Source: Streptomyces sp. NBC_00271 (GTDB lineage Bacteria > Actinomycetota > Actinomycetes > Streptomycetales > Streptomycetaceae). From it: DNA of 64,000 nucleotides. Made by a program: the position numbers and the translations under genes. The notes below the pieces were generated by a model. That model saw nothing but the letters and a program-made list of their open reading frames with translations, searched no databases and was not told where the DNA came from. The stretch is taken from positions 3,596,001-3,660,000 of the forward strand of contig NZ_CP108070.1 of the NCBI RefSeq assembly GCF_036178845.1, read 5' to 3'. Of this stretch, positions 2,617-8,564 are shown piece after piece (position 1 is the first letter of the stretch; each line of letters starts with the position of its first letter).

Positions 2617-2904
2617 GGGACTCCTGTCGGGCGAGGGCGGGGGCGCCTTCGGGCGACGTCGGCCGGGCGGTGTACTGCCTACGGTAGATCGCGTTGCTGG
2701 AGGAAATGGAACGTATGTATTTCCGGGAGGTGACGCATCGCGGGGATGCCGCGTTCTTTATGAACGCAACTGCCGGTCGGCCGGGCATTAAGCCGGGAAC
2801 GAAACCGGGGACGAAGCCCGGGATGAAGCCGGGGATGAAATGGAGCGGGTCCGAGGGCGTAGCCGGCCCCCGGACCCTTGTGATGCCACCCATGTCACAC
2901 GCCG
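2617..2904. other. Intergenic region with 12-bp tandem repeats
   Basis: No convincing gene. It holds the upstream region of the FUSC gene and a five-unit 12-bp tandem repeat at 2781-2840. A 98-residue plus-strand reading frame (2694-2990) crosses the repeat, but it runs into the structured RNA region and resembles no family I know. Confidence 0.6.
2781..2840. repeat. Five tandem 12-bp units
   Basis: Units begin at 2781, 2793, 2805, 2817 and 2829 with consensus CCGGGRAYGAAR. The period is a multiple of three, so in plus-strand reading it would give a Pro-Gly-X-Lys series. It sits just beyond the distal end of the permuted tRNA-like RNA. Function unknown. Confidence 0.85.
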
Positions 2905-2936
2905 GCACGCTTGAGAACCCAGGTCAGTCGTTATGT

Positions 2937-3005
2937 CGCCGCGTCCTGCCTTTGGACCACCACGCATCGAGCTGCGCGGACTGGACTTGAACCAGCATTT
3001 CGGCG
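2937..3005 (-). ncRNA. Permuted tRNA-like module 2
   Basis: The outer anticodon-like stem is CGCCG (3005-3001) with CGGCG (2941-2937), 5/5 pairs. The T arm is GCTGG-TTCAAGT-CCAGT (2996-2980), with a canonical T loop and one G-U closing pair. The acceptor-like stem CCGCGCA (2979-2973) pairs 7/7 (one G-U) with TGCGTGG (2966-2960), capped by a six-base loop. Two bases (TG) then lead to a perfect 4-bp D arm, GTCC-AAAGGCA-GGAC (2957-2943). Every tRNA arm is present but the 5' and 3' halves are swapped, so this cannot be a conventional tRNA. Confidence 0.85.
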
Positions 3006-3079
3006 TCCCGGGGCCTGGGCCCGGTCGATCCGGCGATCGGCGGCGAATGCTGAGTCTGGAGCAAGAGTCTGAGATTGAT

Positions 3080-3180
3080 CACGGTCTGCCTCTGCCGAGT
3101 TGGGCTACCGCGGCGTGTGGGCACTCCGTGGAGTGCCGTGTGGTGCCGCGGGGAGGATTCGAACCTCCACTGGAACCGCG
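3080..3180 (-). ncRNA. Permuted tRNA-like module 1
   Basis: Order 5' to 3' on the minus strand: CGGTT (3178-3174) pairs with GACCG (3086-3082) as the anticodon-like stem, extended inward by two more pairs. A five-base variable segment leads to the T arm, GGAGG-TTCGAAT-CCTCC (3168-3152). Then CCGCGGC (3151-3145) pairs 7/7 with GCCGCGG (3114-3108) as the acceptor-like stem, closed by an 8-bp hairpin GGCACTCC/GGAGTGCC (3137-3120). U8-A9-like TA (3107-3106) follows, then a 3-bp D stem GCC/GGC (3105-3103, 3090-3088) whose loop carries the GG pair and A21-like base. ACCA directly follows the acceptor 3' strand, as in a mature tRNA. The TAGCCCAA and D-arm wording matches the tRNA-Leu at 42273. Confidence 0.85.
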
Positions 3181-3218
3181 CATTCACGACAAGCTTCAGG
3201 TTCAGCTTGCGCTCCTCG

Positions 3219-3279
3219 CGCACCCCGGCCGTGGTGCGTTGTGGCCGGGGAGATTCAGAGGCTACCCGAACAGGTAGCC
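3219..3279 (-). promoter_or_regulatory. Hairpins at the stop codon and just after it, upstream of the permuted RNA
   Basis: On the minus strand GGCTACC-tgttcg-GGTAGCC (3279-3260) forms a perfect 7-bp hairpin that includes the TAG stop of the upstream gene. A second stem CCCCGGCC/GGCCGGGG (3250-3243 with 3230-3223) follows; an alternative 6-bp CGCACC/GGTGCG stem (3238-3233 with 3224-3219) competes with it. They could act as a transcript stabiliser, a partial terminator or an RNA-processing site separating the message from the structured RNA. Pairing is seen; role is inferred. Confidence 0.6.
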
Positions 3280-3993
3280 GAACACGGAGTCCCCGACGCG
3301 CTGGTCGACGACGTCCACGCCGTTCGCCTCTTCCCGGGCGAACTTGACGGCCTGCTGCAACTTCTCGACCCGGTCGAGCAGTTCGTTCACGCGTCGCGCG
3401 GGCAGGGCGCCGGAGAACTTCACGGTCGTCCAGTACCCGACGGGAATGTCCTCGTAGTACACCTCGACCTGGGCGGGATGCTTCTCGGTGGCCTCGGCCT
3501 TGACGTGGTTGCGCGGCACCTTCTTGGTCCGCAGCGTCCTGACGGGCTCGGTCTTCCACGCGTCCGTCGACGGGTCCTGGACCCACGACTCGGAGGCGTC
3601 GAGAACGGGCAGCTTGCGCACAAAGGTGTTGAGATCGGTGAGCTGCTTCTCGAGGAAGAGCAGATACGACACGGGCACGTCGGCGACGAGGACCCGCCCG
3701 TCCACCTTCACATCCGCCCGGGCCGTGCAGTTCGCCCAGTCCTTGGTGGCGGTCACGTCGAACAGCCGGGTGAGCGTCCCCGCGGTCTCCCGCAACACGT
3801 CCTCGGCCTGCACCTGCACCCGCGTCGACTCGGGCGGCAGCTGCTCGCCCTCCTCGTCCTTCGGCTGATAGGTCCGCGAGATGCCGGCCAGCAATGCGGG
3901 CTTCTGCAGCCCGTGATGAGCGGCTGTCAGGTCCTGATGGGACTTGGACTTGATGCCCTTCTCCACTGCGATGATCTGATTGAGTTTCGCCAC
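3262..3993 (-). CDS. Conserved protein of unknown function paired with the permuted tRNA-like RNA
   Basis: 243 residues from a GTG (V/M-AKLNQIIAVEKGIKSK...). The frame extends upstream but that part is low-complexity and overlaps the neighbour, so the GTG at 3993 is preferred; its ribosome binding site is weak. No signal peptide or membrane helix. Visible are a Lys-rich N-terminus, an acidic linker near residues 44-52, one cysteine, a beta-rich middle (DVKVDGRVLVADVPVSYLLFLEKQ) and a long amphipathic C-terminal helix (residues about 200-225). I recognise it as an uncharacterised actinobacterial/actinophage-type family; DUF7873 is my unverified recollection. It is not a TROVE/Ro60 protein, which is about 500 residues with a ring of HEAT repeats. 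The tandem tRNA-like RNA lies immediately downstream, suggesting it binds or processes that RNA. Function unknown. Confidence 0.85.
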   Translation of the reverse strand: MAKLNQIIAVEKGIKSKSHQDLTAAHHGLQKPALLAGISRTYQPKDEEGEQLPPESTRVQVQAEDVLRETAGTLTRLFDVTATKDWANCTARADVKVDGRVLVADVPVSYLLFLEKQLTDLNTFVRKLPVLDASESWVQDPSTDAWKTEPVRTLRTKKVPRNHVKAEATEKHPAQVEVYYEDIPVGYWTTVKFSGALPARRVNELLDRVEKLQQAVKFAREEANGVDVVDQRVGDSVFGYLFG

Positions 3994-4034: not shown

Positions 4035-4874
4035 TTATTCGACACCGGATTCCCGCGCCCGGGGGAGCTCGGCGTCCAGGACCTCCTCGGCCCGGATGAC
4101 CGCCGCGTCCAAGACCGTCTCCGCCCGCCCGAGCATGTGCACCAGCCCTTCCGGCTCGTTCACCCCGCCTCGCACGATCTCGTCGATCCCTCTCAACCCG
4201 GCCCGCTCCAGCAGCCGCTTCTCGTTCGTCACCCACTCCCCACGCGCCGCCAGCACCGCGTGACCGGTCTGCAGGGCGGCGGTCGCCAGCGCTCCCACGA
4301 CCTCCGTGAGACGACCGGCGGGTGCGTGGTTGGCCTTGGCGTAGGCGAGGGTGGCGTGGGCGGTGCCGTGCCAGTGGGCGGAAGCGGAGGTGCGGAGTTT
4401 CGCCGGGTAGGCGGCGGGTCGGGGCAGGTCGCCGCGCAGGACACGGTTGACGGCGAGCTCGGCGACGAGGAGGTAGCTGGGGATTCCGGCGAGATGGAAG
4501 AGGAGCGGCTCCACATGGAACCGCCCCTGCTCCGCCCTCGCCAACTCCCGTTCCACCACGTCGAGATCCCGGTAGTGGACGTCGACACGACGGTCTTCGA
4601 CGGTCAGCCAGGCACCGCCGTTGAACACGCCCCCGCCCCAGCCGCCGATCTCCGAGACTTCACCCTGCCAGCCGACGGCCCGCAGGTCGTCGGGGTCGAA
4701 GGCGCCCCGGTAGTAGATCGCCAGGTCCCAGTCACTGTCGGGACCATGGGTGCCTTGCGCGCGGGAGCCACCGAGGGCGACGGCCCGGACGGTGGGGAGG
4801 GCGGCCAGGCGGTCAGTGACGTGGGCGAGGAACTTGTCGTCGTCGATGTGCGGCGGCTGGGTCGGTGTGGGCAT
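4035..4874 (-). CDS. Nucleotidyltransferase-domain protein
   Basis: 279 residues from the ATG at 4874; a GTG 66 bases upstream would add a poorly conserved stretch. The N-terminal third has the Pol-beta nucleotidyltransferase signature GGSRAQG followed by SDWDLAIYY, supplying the two metal-binding aspartates, with a third candidate acidic residue in VDVHYRDLD. The C-terminal part is helical. Such proteins transfer nucleoside monophosphates to small molecules, proteins or RNA; the group includes aminoglycoside adenylyltransferases and MNT-type antitoxins. No HEPN partner is adjacent. It lies 41 bases upstream of the tRNA-like locus gene on the same strand, so co-transcription is possible. Substrate unknown. 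Confidence 0.8.
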   Translation of the reverse strand: MPTPTQPPHIDDDKFLAHVTDRLAALPTVRAVALGGSRAQGTHGPDSDWDLAIYYRGAFDPDDLRAVGWQGEVSEIGGWGGGVFNGGAWLTVEDRRVDVHYRDLDVVERELARAEQGRFHVEPLLFHLAGIPSYLLVAELAVNRVLRGDLPRPAAYPAKLRTSASAHWHGTAHATLAYAKANHAPAGRLTEVVGALATAALQTGHAVLAARGEWVTNEKRLLERAGLRGIDEIVRGGVNEPEGLVHMLGRAETVLDAAVIRAEEVLDAELPRARESGVE

Positions 4875-5058
4875 GAGGTGAGGATGCGGTCGGGTGACGG
4901 GGCTGTCGAGCCAATATCCGTCGGGAGGCTGGACCGTCACCCTCGCGGGGCAGGGCCTTCGGCTGGGGACGAGTCGGGGCTAAATCGCGTGCGATCGCCC
5001 TCCGTCCGCCCACACCATAGGAAGGTTGCCCGCCCAGTCGAGGATTCGTGGAGTTCCC

Positions 5059-7880: not shown

Positions 7881-8564
7881 ATGACGAAGATCGAACCCCT
7901 GGGCGCGGAACGGGAACCCCTGGGCGCGGTCCGCGAACGCGTCCTGGCCGCGCTGCGGCAGGAGATCATCGCGGGGCGGCTGCGCCCCGGGGACCGTCTC
8001 GTCGAACGCGAGCTGGCGGAGCGGTTCGGGGTCTCACGGGTTCCCGTGCGCGAGGCGATCCGCGCGCTCGTGGCGGAGGGGTTCGTGCACTTCGAGACAC
8101 CGCGCCGCACGGTCGTACGCCGGCTCACCCCGACGGACGTGGCCGAACTCTTCGAGCTGCGCGAGGCGCTGGAGGTCTACGCGGCCGGGCTCGCGGCGGC
8201 ACGGGCGACACCGCGGGACCTCGCCGAGCTGGCGGACCTGCTGGACCGTGCGGCGACGGCGACCCGCGCCGACGACGCGGAGGCGATCACCGACATCAAC
8301 ACCCGCTTCCACGACCGCATCCTCGCCATGGCGGGCAACAGCCTGCTGATCTCCGTCATGGAGCCGGTCGACGGCCGACTGCGCTGGCTCACCCGCCAGA
8401 ACGAGGAGTGGCCCCAACTTCTCACCGAACACCACGAGTTGTACGAGTCCATCGCCTCCGGCGACCCGGAGCGCGCCCGCGCGCACGCCCTCGCCCACGT
8501 CCAGGCCAACTACCGGTCGACGGTGCGGCACCTCTTCGGCGAAACAGAGGCTCCCCGAGCCTGA
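7881..8564 (+). CDS. GntR-family regulator (FadR/FCD subfamily)
   Basis: 227 residues. Winged helix at residues about 15-80 (VRERVLAALRQEIIAGRLRPGDRLVERELAERFGVSRVPVREAIRAL), then an all-helical FCD ligand domain from about 85 with metal-binding His/Asp positions (DINTRFHDRI, LTEHHELYESI). Probably a ligand-released repressor of the divergent NCS1/racemase operon, sensing a nucleobase or hydantoin-type metabolite; the palindrome between them is the likely site. The N-terminus carries a short duplication (EPLGAERE-PLGAVRE) from a repeated 15-base segment. The stop codon sits inside the first copy of a 28-bp direct repeat. Confidence 0.93.
   Translation: MTKIEPLGAEREPLGAVRERVLAALRQEIIAGRLRPGDRLVERELAERFGVSRVPVREAIRALVAEGFVHFETPRRTVVRRLTPTDVAELFELREALEVYAAGLAAARATPRDLAELADLLDRAATATRADDAEAITDINTRFHDRILAMAGNSLLISVMEPVDGRLRWLTRQNEEWPQLLTEHHELYESIASGDPERARAHALAHVQANYRSTVRHLFGETEAPRA

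Follow-up and report, generated by a model that had tools for sequence, protein, structure and literature searches.

Transfer-messenger RNA (tmRNA) has a tag reading frame and works with the protein SmpB. GOLLD and ROOL are large structured RNAs of phages, some of them located near transfer RNA (tRNA) genes; permuted tRNA modules are, to our knowledge, not known in either. In the permuted tRNA genes of red algae the 3' half is encoded ahead of the 5' half, and mature tRNAs with an anticodon result. In YrlA (Rfam RF02553; Deinococcus radiodurans, Salmonella) a T arm is followed by a loop-closed acceptor stem and by a D arm on an anticodon-position stem. According to PMC8394870, YrlA measures 90–150 nucleotides (nt), its tRNA-like domain is bound by PNPase and carries modifications made by DusA and TruB, and its stem binds the Ro60 homologue. 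Here we analyse a window of 64,000 nt (the whole stretch under study) from Streptomyces sp. NBC_00271 (NZ_CP108070.1, positions 3,596,001 to 3,660,000), in which a gene of the DUF7873 protein family is directly followed, on the same (minus) strand, by a structured RNA with a predicted length of about 400 nt and with two tRNA-like modules in circularly permuted form. The RNA itself is a prediction.

The topology of the modules is already known from YrlA. Unlike YrlA, however, the RNA combines two modules in its greater length and has a conserved core of two helices, P3 and P4, a 3' hairpin, DUF7873 as its neighbour and a CCA in about half of the viral modules. The initial annotation had likened it to the tRNA-mimic domain of YrlA. 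This holds for the topology, and under permissive settings RF02553 does align to module 1 with 24.5 bits, but the cut-off is 69 and there is no gathering-level match at the locus, so that membership in the YrlA family is not supported. With tmRNA it shares a tRNA-like part within a larger RNA that has a protein partner (here a predicted one); the beta_tmRNA model partly matches module 1 (25.6 bits versus a cut-off of 84), with only the T/acceptor/D part aligning. With GOLLD and ROOL it shares the nature of a large structured RNA found in phages, but neither of them was matched at the Rfam gathering threshold, whether in the window or in any of nine phage or viral loci. As in the red algal genes the 3' half comes first, but the modules have no closed anticodon loop. 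The RNA family, its tandem form, its core and its link to DUF7873 were not reported in the literature searched, which left out key YrlA papers.

Structure of the modules and the core

Our finder demands a T arm, then a loop-closed acceptor stem, then a D arm together with an anticodon-position stem; a T loop of the UUCRA type was also required, and the region scanned extends up to 700 nt after DUF7873. Both modules described in the initial annotation were recovered in this way, in tandem on the minus strand, with the T arm first in each, the closed acceptor second and the D arm third. Module 1 (3082–3178) is composed of an anticodon-position stem (3178–3174/3086–3082), a T arm (3168–3152), an acceptor stem (3151–3145/3114–3108) and a D arm (3105–3088). 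Its acceptor loop (3115–3144) starts with ACCA, that is, discriminator plus CCA. Module 2 (2937–3005) has its anticodon-position stem at 3005–3001/2941–2937, the T arm at 2996–2980, the acceptor stem at 2979–2973/2966–2960 and the D arm at 2957–2943. The numbers of pairs also agree with those first noted: T 5/5, acceptor 7/7, D 3/3 and anticodon-position 5/5 for module 1, and T 5/5, acceptor 7/7, D 4/4 and anticodon-position 5/5 for module 2. The T loops of the counted modules keep the UUCRA which the finder required. Pairing of this kind exceeds chance, as had been supposed: against two modules in the 700 nt after the DUF7873 gene of the window stand 12 in 560 dinucleotide-shuffled downstream regions and one in 112 opposite strands. 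The folding energy is unremarkable when taken alone (z -1.54; equalled or surpassed by 6 of 100 shuffles). The case for structure rests on comparative data.

Covariation in the stems had been set as a test beforehand and was found for both modules. For module 2 (45 sequences) it amounts to 0.772 versus 0.231 when shuffled (0/500), with two-sided changes in all 21 of 21 pairs; for module 1 the values are 0.571 and 0.168 (0/500), with two-sided changes in 18 of 20 pairs. Since the finder that chose these sequences required pairing, both sets lean towards structure, and the anticodon-position stem is paired in only 65–66% of their cells. The helices P3 and P4 lie outside the modules and were not used for selection. 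Together they reach 0.629 versus 0.256 shuffled (0/500), with 16 of 17 pairs changing on both sides; slid along the alignment they reach at most 0.166, a control which favours P3/P4 because their exact limits came from the same alignment. RNAalifold, run on alignment A5 alone, predicted the T, acceptor and D stems of module 2 as well as P3 and P4, and two-sided changes occur in 29 of these 33 predicted pairs.

In the window, P3 pairs 3030–3037 with 2905–2898, the outermost two of its eight pairs being weak, and P4 pairs 3014–3022 with 2923–2915. Between them lies an internal loop with the conserved AUCGACC on its 5' side (3023–3029), which we propose as a possible DUF7873 contact; on the 3' side (2906–2914) the window has UCAAGCGUG, and many relatives have UUAAACG. 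A single helix around both modules, as first suggested, is seen only as a short outer stem in the minimum-energy fold, whereas P3 and P4, which have the support of covariation, enclose module 2 alone.

Co-occurrence with DUF7873 and relation to Ro60

The DUF7873 gene (3262–3993, minus strand, GTG start at 3993) is the proposed partner of the RNA. It codes for 243 amino acids, the most frequent length among the listed homologues, and scores 401.8 bits against the Pfam family PF25283, whose gathering cut-off is 27. It is the single DUF7873 match in its 12.3 Mb genome. Copies up to 100% identical exist in named Streptomyces contigs, and 6,865 of the 7,997 candidates scored are relatives.

From alignment A5 (29 sequences, core plus module 2) a covariance model, R1, with 184 positions and 38 pairs was derived. 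In 61 genomes of the same genus a full-length match, here 89.7 bits or more, was obtained in exactly the 32 which have DUF7873 and in none of the 29 which do not; the R1 matches listed for the latter are partial, at most 54.8 bits, or absent. A draw of 296 genomes from the phylum gave the RNA and DUF7873 both in the same six. Thus, among the cellular genomes searched, the RNA occurs only with the DUF7873 gene. Furthermore, all 81 Streptomyces-type loci (80 fetched ones and the window) have at least one module within 700 nt, 52 of them two and 29 one. The partial R1 matches of the own genome include tandem tRNA-Asn genes and a YrlA beside the TROVE gene; in other genomes a TROVE match is often found no more than about 1.5 kb from them. 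The tandem tRNA-Asn genes (C1:4258474-4258624, L001) also have the top score of the own genome with the YrlA model, 40.8 bits. As they mimic a permuted module, tandem tRNAs are a source of false positives.

The close topology raises the question of a Y RNA of the YrlA family that acts with Ro60 in trans, DUF7873 being a bystander. Besides the shared module order and the permissive Rfam alignment, the presence of one TROVE gene in the genome speaks for it. This gene, the only Ro60/TROVE match, is about 112 kb away, and the earlier statement that no Ro60 stands beside the RNA is correct. It has two YrlA-like RNAs of its own just upstream (L011 5440-5860 on the minus strand, C1 about 3485440-3485860), which match R1 in its module part only, positions 75–135. 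The second of these has, by eye, a Leu-like D arm. Among the 61 genomes, 22 have DUF7873 and TROVE, 10 only DUF7873, 17 only TROVE and 12 neither. Hence TROVE was not matched at the search threshold in 10 of the 32 carriers, although single absences may be misses because TROVE matches cover a short part of the model, and 17 of the 29 non-carriers do have one. The RNA and DUF7873, in contrast, share the same genomes in both draws, genus and phylum. With the score below the Rfam cut-off in addition, an action with Ro60 in trans appears very unlikely and, judged from these distributions, Ro60 is probably not the partner of the DUF7873 RNA.

Phage and viral copies

DUF7873 is encoded in 73 of 50,697 phage records, every one with less than 60% identity. 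Their hosts are Vibrio (29), Gordonia (12), Rhizobium (12), Klebsiella (7), Serratia (6), Arthrobacter (3), Pseudanabaena (2), Rhodococcus (1) and Microcoleus (1). Fourteen of these records were fetched and their modules judged by finder, model or reading. Two modules were found in the phages Mimi, Phendrix, NiceHouse, Keelan, Ziko (module 1 by eye only), Pam2, FBKp24 and KpLz-2_45. Three Rhizobium phages and a Vibrio phage have a single module, which takes the position of module 2. PA-SR01 has no module within 700 nt and a full-length model match (58 bits) further downstream; the Microcoleus phage, with only a partial match about 2 kb downstream, was excluded from the count.

The strict finder gave two modules in 11, one in 16 and none in 3 of 30 IMG/VR loci, which include five near-identical pairs, and among 61 further loci three modules in 2, two in 25, one in 27 and none in 7. 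When the ten module-less loci were re-examined, the RNA could be recognised by eye in L030, L031, L196, L204 and L224, where its loops vary or an inserted frame precedes it, and L024, L181 and L248 had full-length model matches at unusual places. Only L192 and L235 remained without an RNA by eye and model. Altogether, of 80 DUF7873 loci from viruses and phages, 72 have a full-length R1 match. Within these loci one contig is present twice, as L020 and L206, L158 had been used for training, and some others are closely related to training sequences. No full-length match was found in L039, L163, L165, L169, L170, L172, L192 and L235; of these, L039, L165, L169, L170 and L172 show a partial match to a module no more than about 0.8 kb past DUF7873.

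In most listed loci the first T arm lies about 40–200 nt past the stop codon, a spacing which would suit a cis-acting 3' element that regulates or stabilises the DUF7873 mRNA. We regard such an element as unlikely. In L248 the RNA is located upstream of DUF7873 (2746-2927) and in L024 on the opposite strand (7949-8130), which argues for a separate RNA gene rather than a 3' untranslated region; furthermore, reading frames separate gene and RNA in L030 and L181. The frame in L030, and likewise in L031, is unrelated and possibly an HNH-type nuclease (by eye). In L181 the unrelated frame seems to interrupt module 1.

The ends of the acceptor stems are tRNA-like to a different degree in the two groups. 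NCCA stands exactly at the place of tRNA positions 74–76 in 52 of 106 IMG/VR modules (2.6 expected; seven other offsets give at most 2/106), in 11 of 19 modules of named phages and in 19 of 121 of the Streptomyces type. U is found at -1 in 77 of 119 viral modules, versus 24% U in the rest of the loop, and in 24 of 120 Streptomyces-type modules, and G is at +1 in 101 of the 119 viral ones. NCCA, U at -1 and G at +1 are features which RNase P reads. Descent from tRNA genes could lie behind part of this pattern; that it persists while the acceptor stems change suggests selection.

The modules were also compared with a library of 352 tRNAs, 43 of them tRNA-Leu. The closest tRNA to the 5' half of module 1 is tRNA-Leu in 40 of 48 viral modules and in 64 of 69 of the Streptomyces type; for its 3' half this holds in 13 of 48 and 41 of 69, respectively. 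For module 2 this library gave no clear parent. The Leu-like 5' half, the tRNA-like arms and the NCCA, U-1 and G+1 signals could also be read as those of permuted tRNA genes, each module giving rise to a functional tRNA, for instance through RNase P and a joining of the ends. This is highly improbable: the 3' half of module 1 is so much less often Leu-like, module 2 is parentless, an anticodon loop is not closed, and P4 and P3 lie outside the module 2 stem. With 79 tRNA matches already in the own genome, a need for the modules as tRNAs is improbable. Neither ARAGORN nor Rfam at gathering level calls a tRNA at the locus. Across the fetched loci, 75 ARAGORN calls overlap the RNA region, and the RNA with its permuted modules accounts for some false tRNA annotations. 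In Klebsiella phage FBKp24 a 'tRNA-Sup-TTA' is annotated inside the stretch with the two-module RNA (L165 4012-4091).

The number of modules varies also within the Streptomyces type. The distance from the stop codon to module 2 has a median of 200 nt (148–243) with one module and of 263 nt (235–308) with two, as compared over 114 loci, of which 30 have one module, 77 have two and 7 were unassigned. The segment replacing module 1 could be isolated by pattern from 14 of the 30 one-module loci; it forms a stem of 4–9 pairs. By sequence comparison, modules are gained and lost as units. The natural one-module copies, together with kept and lost CCA loops, allow this modularity to be probed.

A possible ribonucleoprotein and its surroundings

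Taking the co-occurrence alone, DUF7873 is likely to bind RNA. Its AlphaFold2 model is confident (predicted local distance difference test 91.6, predicted template modelling score 0.66) and consists of long helices and strands, with no confident relative. The charge is near neutral (33 K+R, 35 D+E).

The reading we prefer, to which we give a probability of roughly one half, is by analogy with YrlA that of a DUF7873-RNA particle. DUF7873 would hold the conserved P3/P4 core, and the RNA would be a scaffold whose two modules dock tRNA-handling enzymes, namely such that read the tRNA elbow, the acceptor stem and the CCA end. In phages RNase P would be the first candidate for a docked enzyme, because NCCA, the U at -1 and the G at +1 persist in many of the phage copies. 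In Streptomyces, where NCCA and the U at -1 are mostly gone, the modules would be expected to dock an enzyme but not to be cleaved.

A further-reaching version, possible but doubtful, is a phage-borne ribonucleoprotein with acceptor loops that RNase P can cleave, giving tRNA mimics with a free CCA, which Streptomyces domesticated with loss of the cleavage signals. The RNA would have been assembled from permuted tRNAs, the first of them tRNA-Leu-like; RNase P would open each loop in infected cells, and the mimics might capture or redirect RNase P, the CCA-adding enzyme or EF-Tu.

A somewhat unlikely function would be that of a phage anti-defence decoy, later kept by Streptomyces, which soaks up nucleases or toxins attacking tRNAs. 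One or more tRNA genes are found outside the RNA in the fetched stretch in 15 of 30 IMG/VR and 5 of 10 named loci (one cellular), versus 3 of 80 Streptomyces loci, in line with such a role. Hughes et al. (PMC7790460) suggest that the YrlA tRNA-like domain may inhibit an anticodon nuclease. The DUF7873 RNA, however, has no closed anticodon loop; therefore anticodon nucleases have no evident target in it, and a conserved core with a constant neighbour protein would exceed the needs of a decoy.

Permuted tRNA mimicry, known in bacteria from Ro60-YrlA, is here found beside an unrelated protein family, often duplicated and with a conserved core. Its range comprises Streptomyces and phages of Gordonia, Arthrobacter, Rhodococcus, Rhizobium, Vibrio, Klebsiella and Pseudanabaena, the phage copies having one module or two. 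The DUF7873 family thereby gains a testable RNA partner, and the named laboratory phages allow the RNA, the protein and the partner enzymes of the proposed particle to be identified directly.

The RNA reaches beyond the two modules. The initial annotation had placed it at 2905–3214; the feature is real, but it extends from about 3250 to 2847 on the minus strand. The core helices, the 3' hairpin, the link to DUF7873 and the occurrence in phages go beyond what that annotation contained. After the stop codon two 5' hairpins were seen by eye (3209–3250), CCCCGGCC/GGCCGGGG and GCGC-GAGGA-GCGC, and hairpins like these were seen by eye in several phage loci. The linker from module 1 to P3 (3038–3081) contains the conserved CUCAGACU...GCUCCAGACUCAGCAUU. 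Beyond module 2 follows the 3' hairpin (2847–2877) with a conserved GGNUAY loop (GGCUAC at 2864–2859). Of the Streptomyces-type regions 91 of 98 have such a hairpin after module 2, and of the viral ones 39 of 71, where shuffles expect 1.0 and 1.5, respectively. The hairpin is likely to be near the 3' end of the RNA. Just past it, at about 2782–2840 (minus strand), short imperfect direct repeats of the ccccggcttcatcc type were noticed by eye.

Just upstream of DUF7873 (4035–4940, minus strand) a nucleotidyltransferase is encoded (NTP_transf_2, with weak matches to the MntA antitoxin and to PADLOC PDC-S09), and for 26 of 80 Streptomyces loci the flanks that were fetched contain a homologue. On a plasmid of S. 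flavofungini (160.7 kb; L168), DUF7873 and a two-module RNA are followed downstream by annotated transposases. This plasmid-borne copy beside transposases suggests mobility of the DUF7873-RNA pair.
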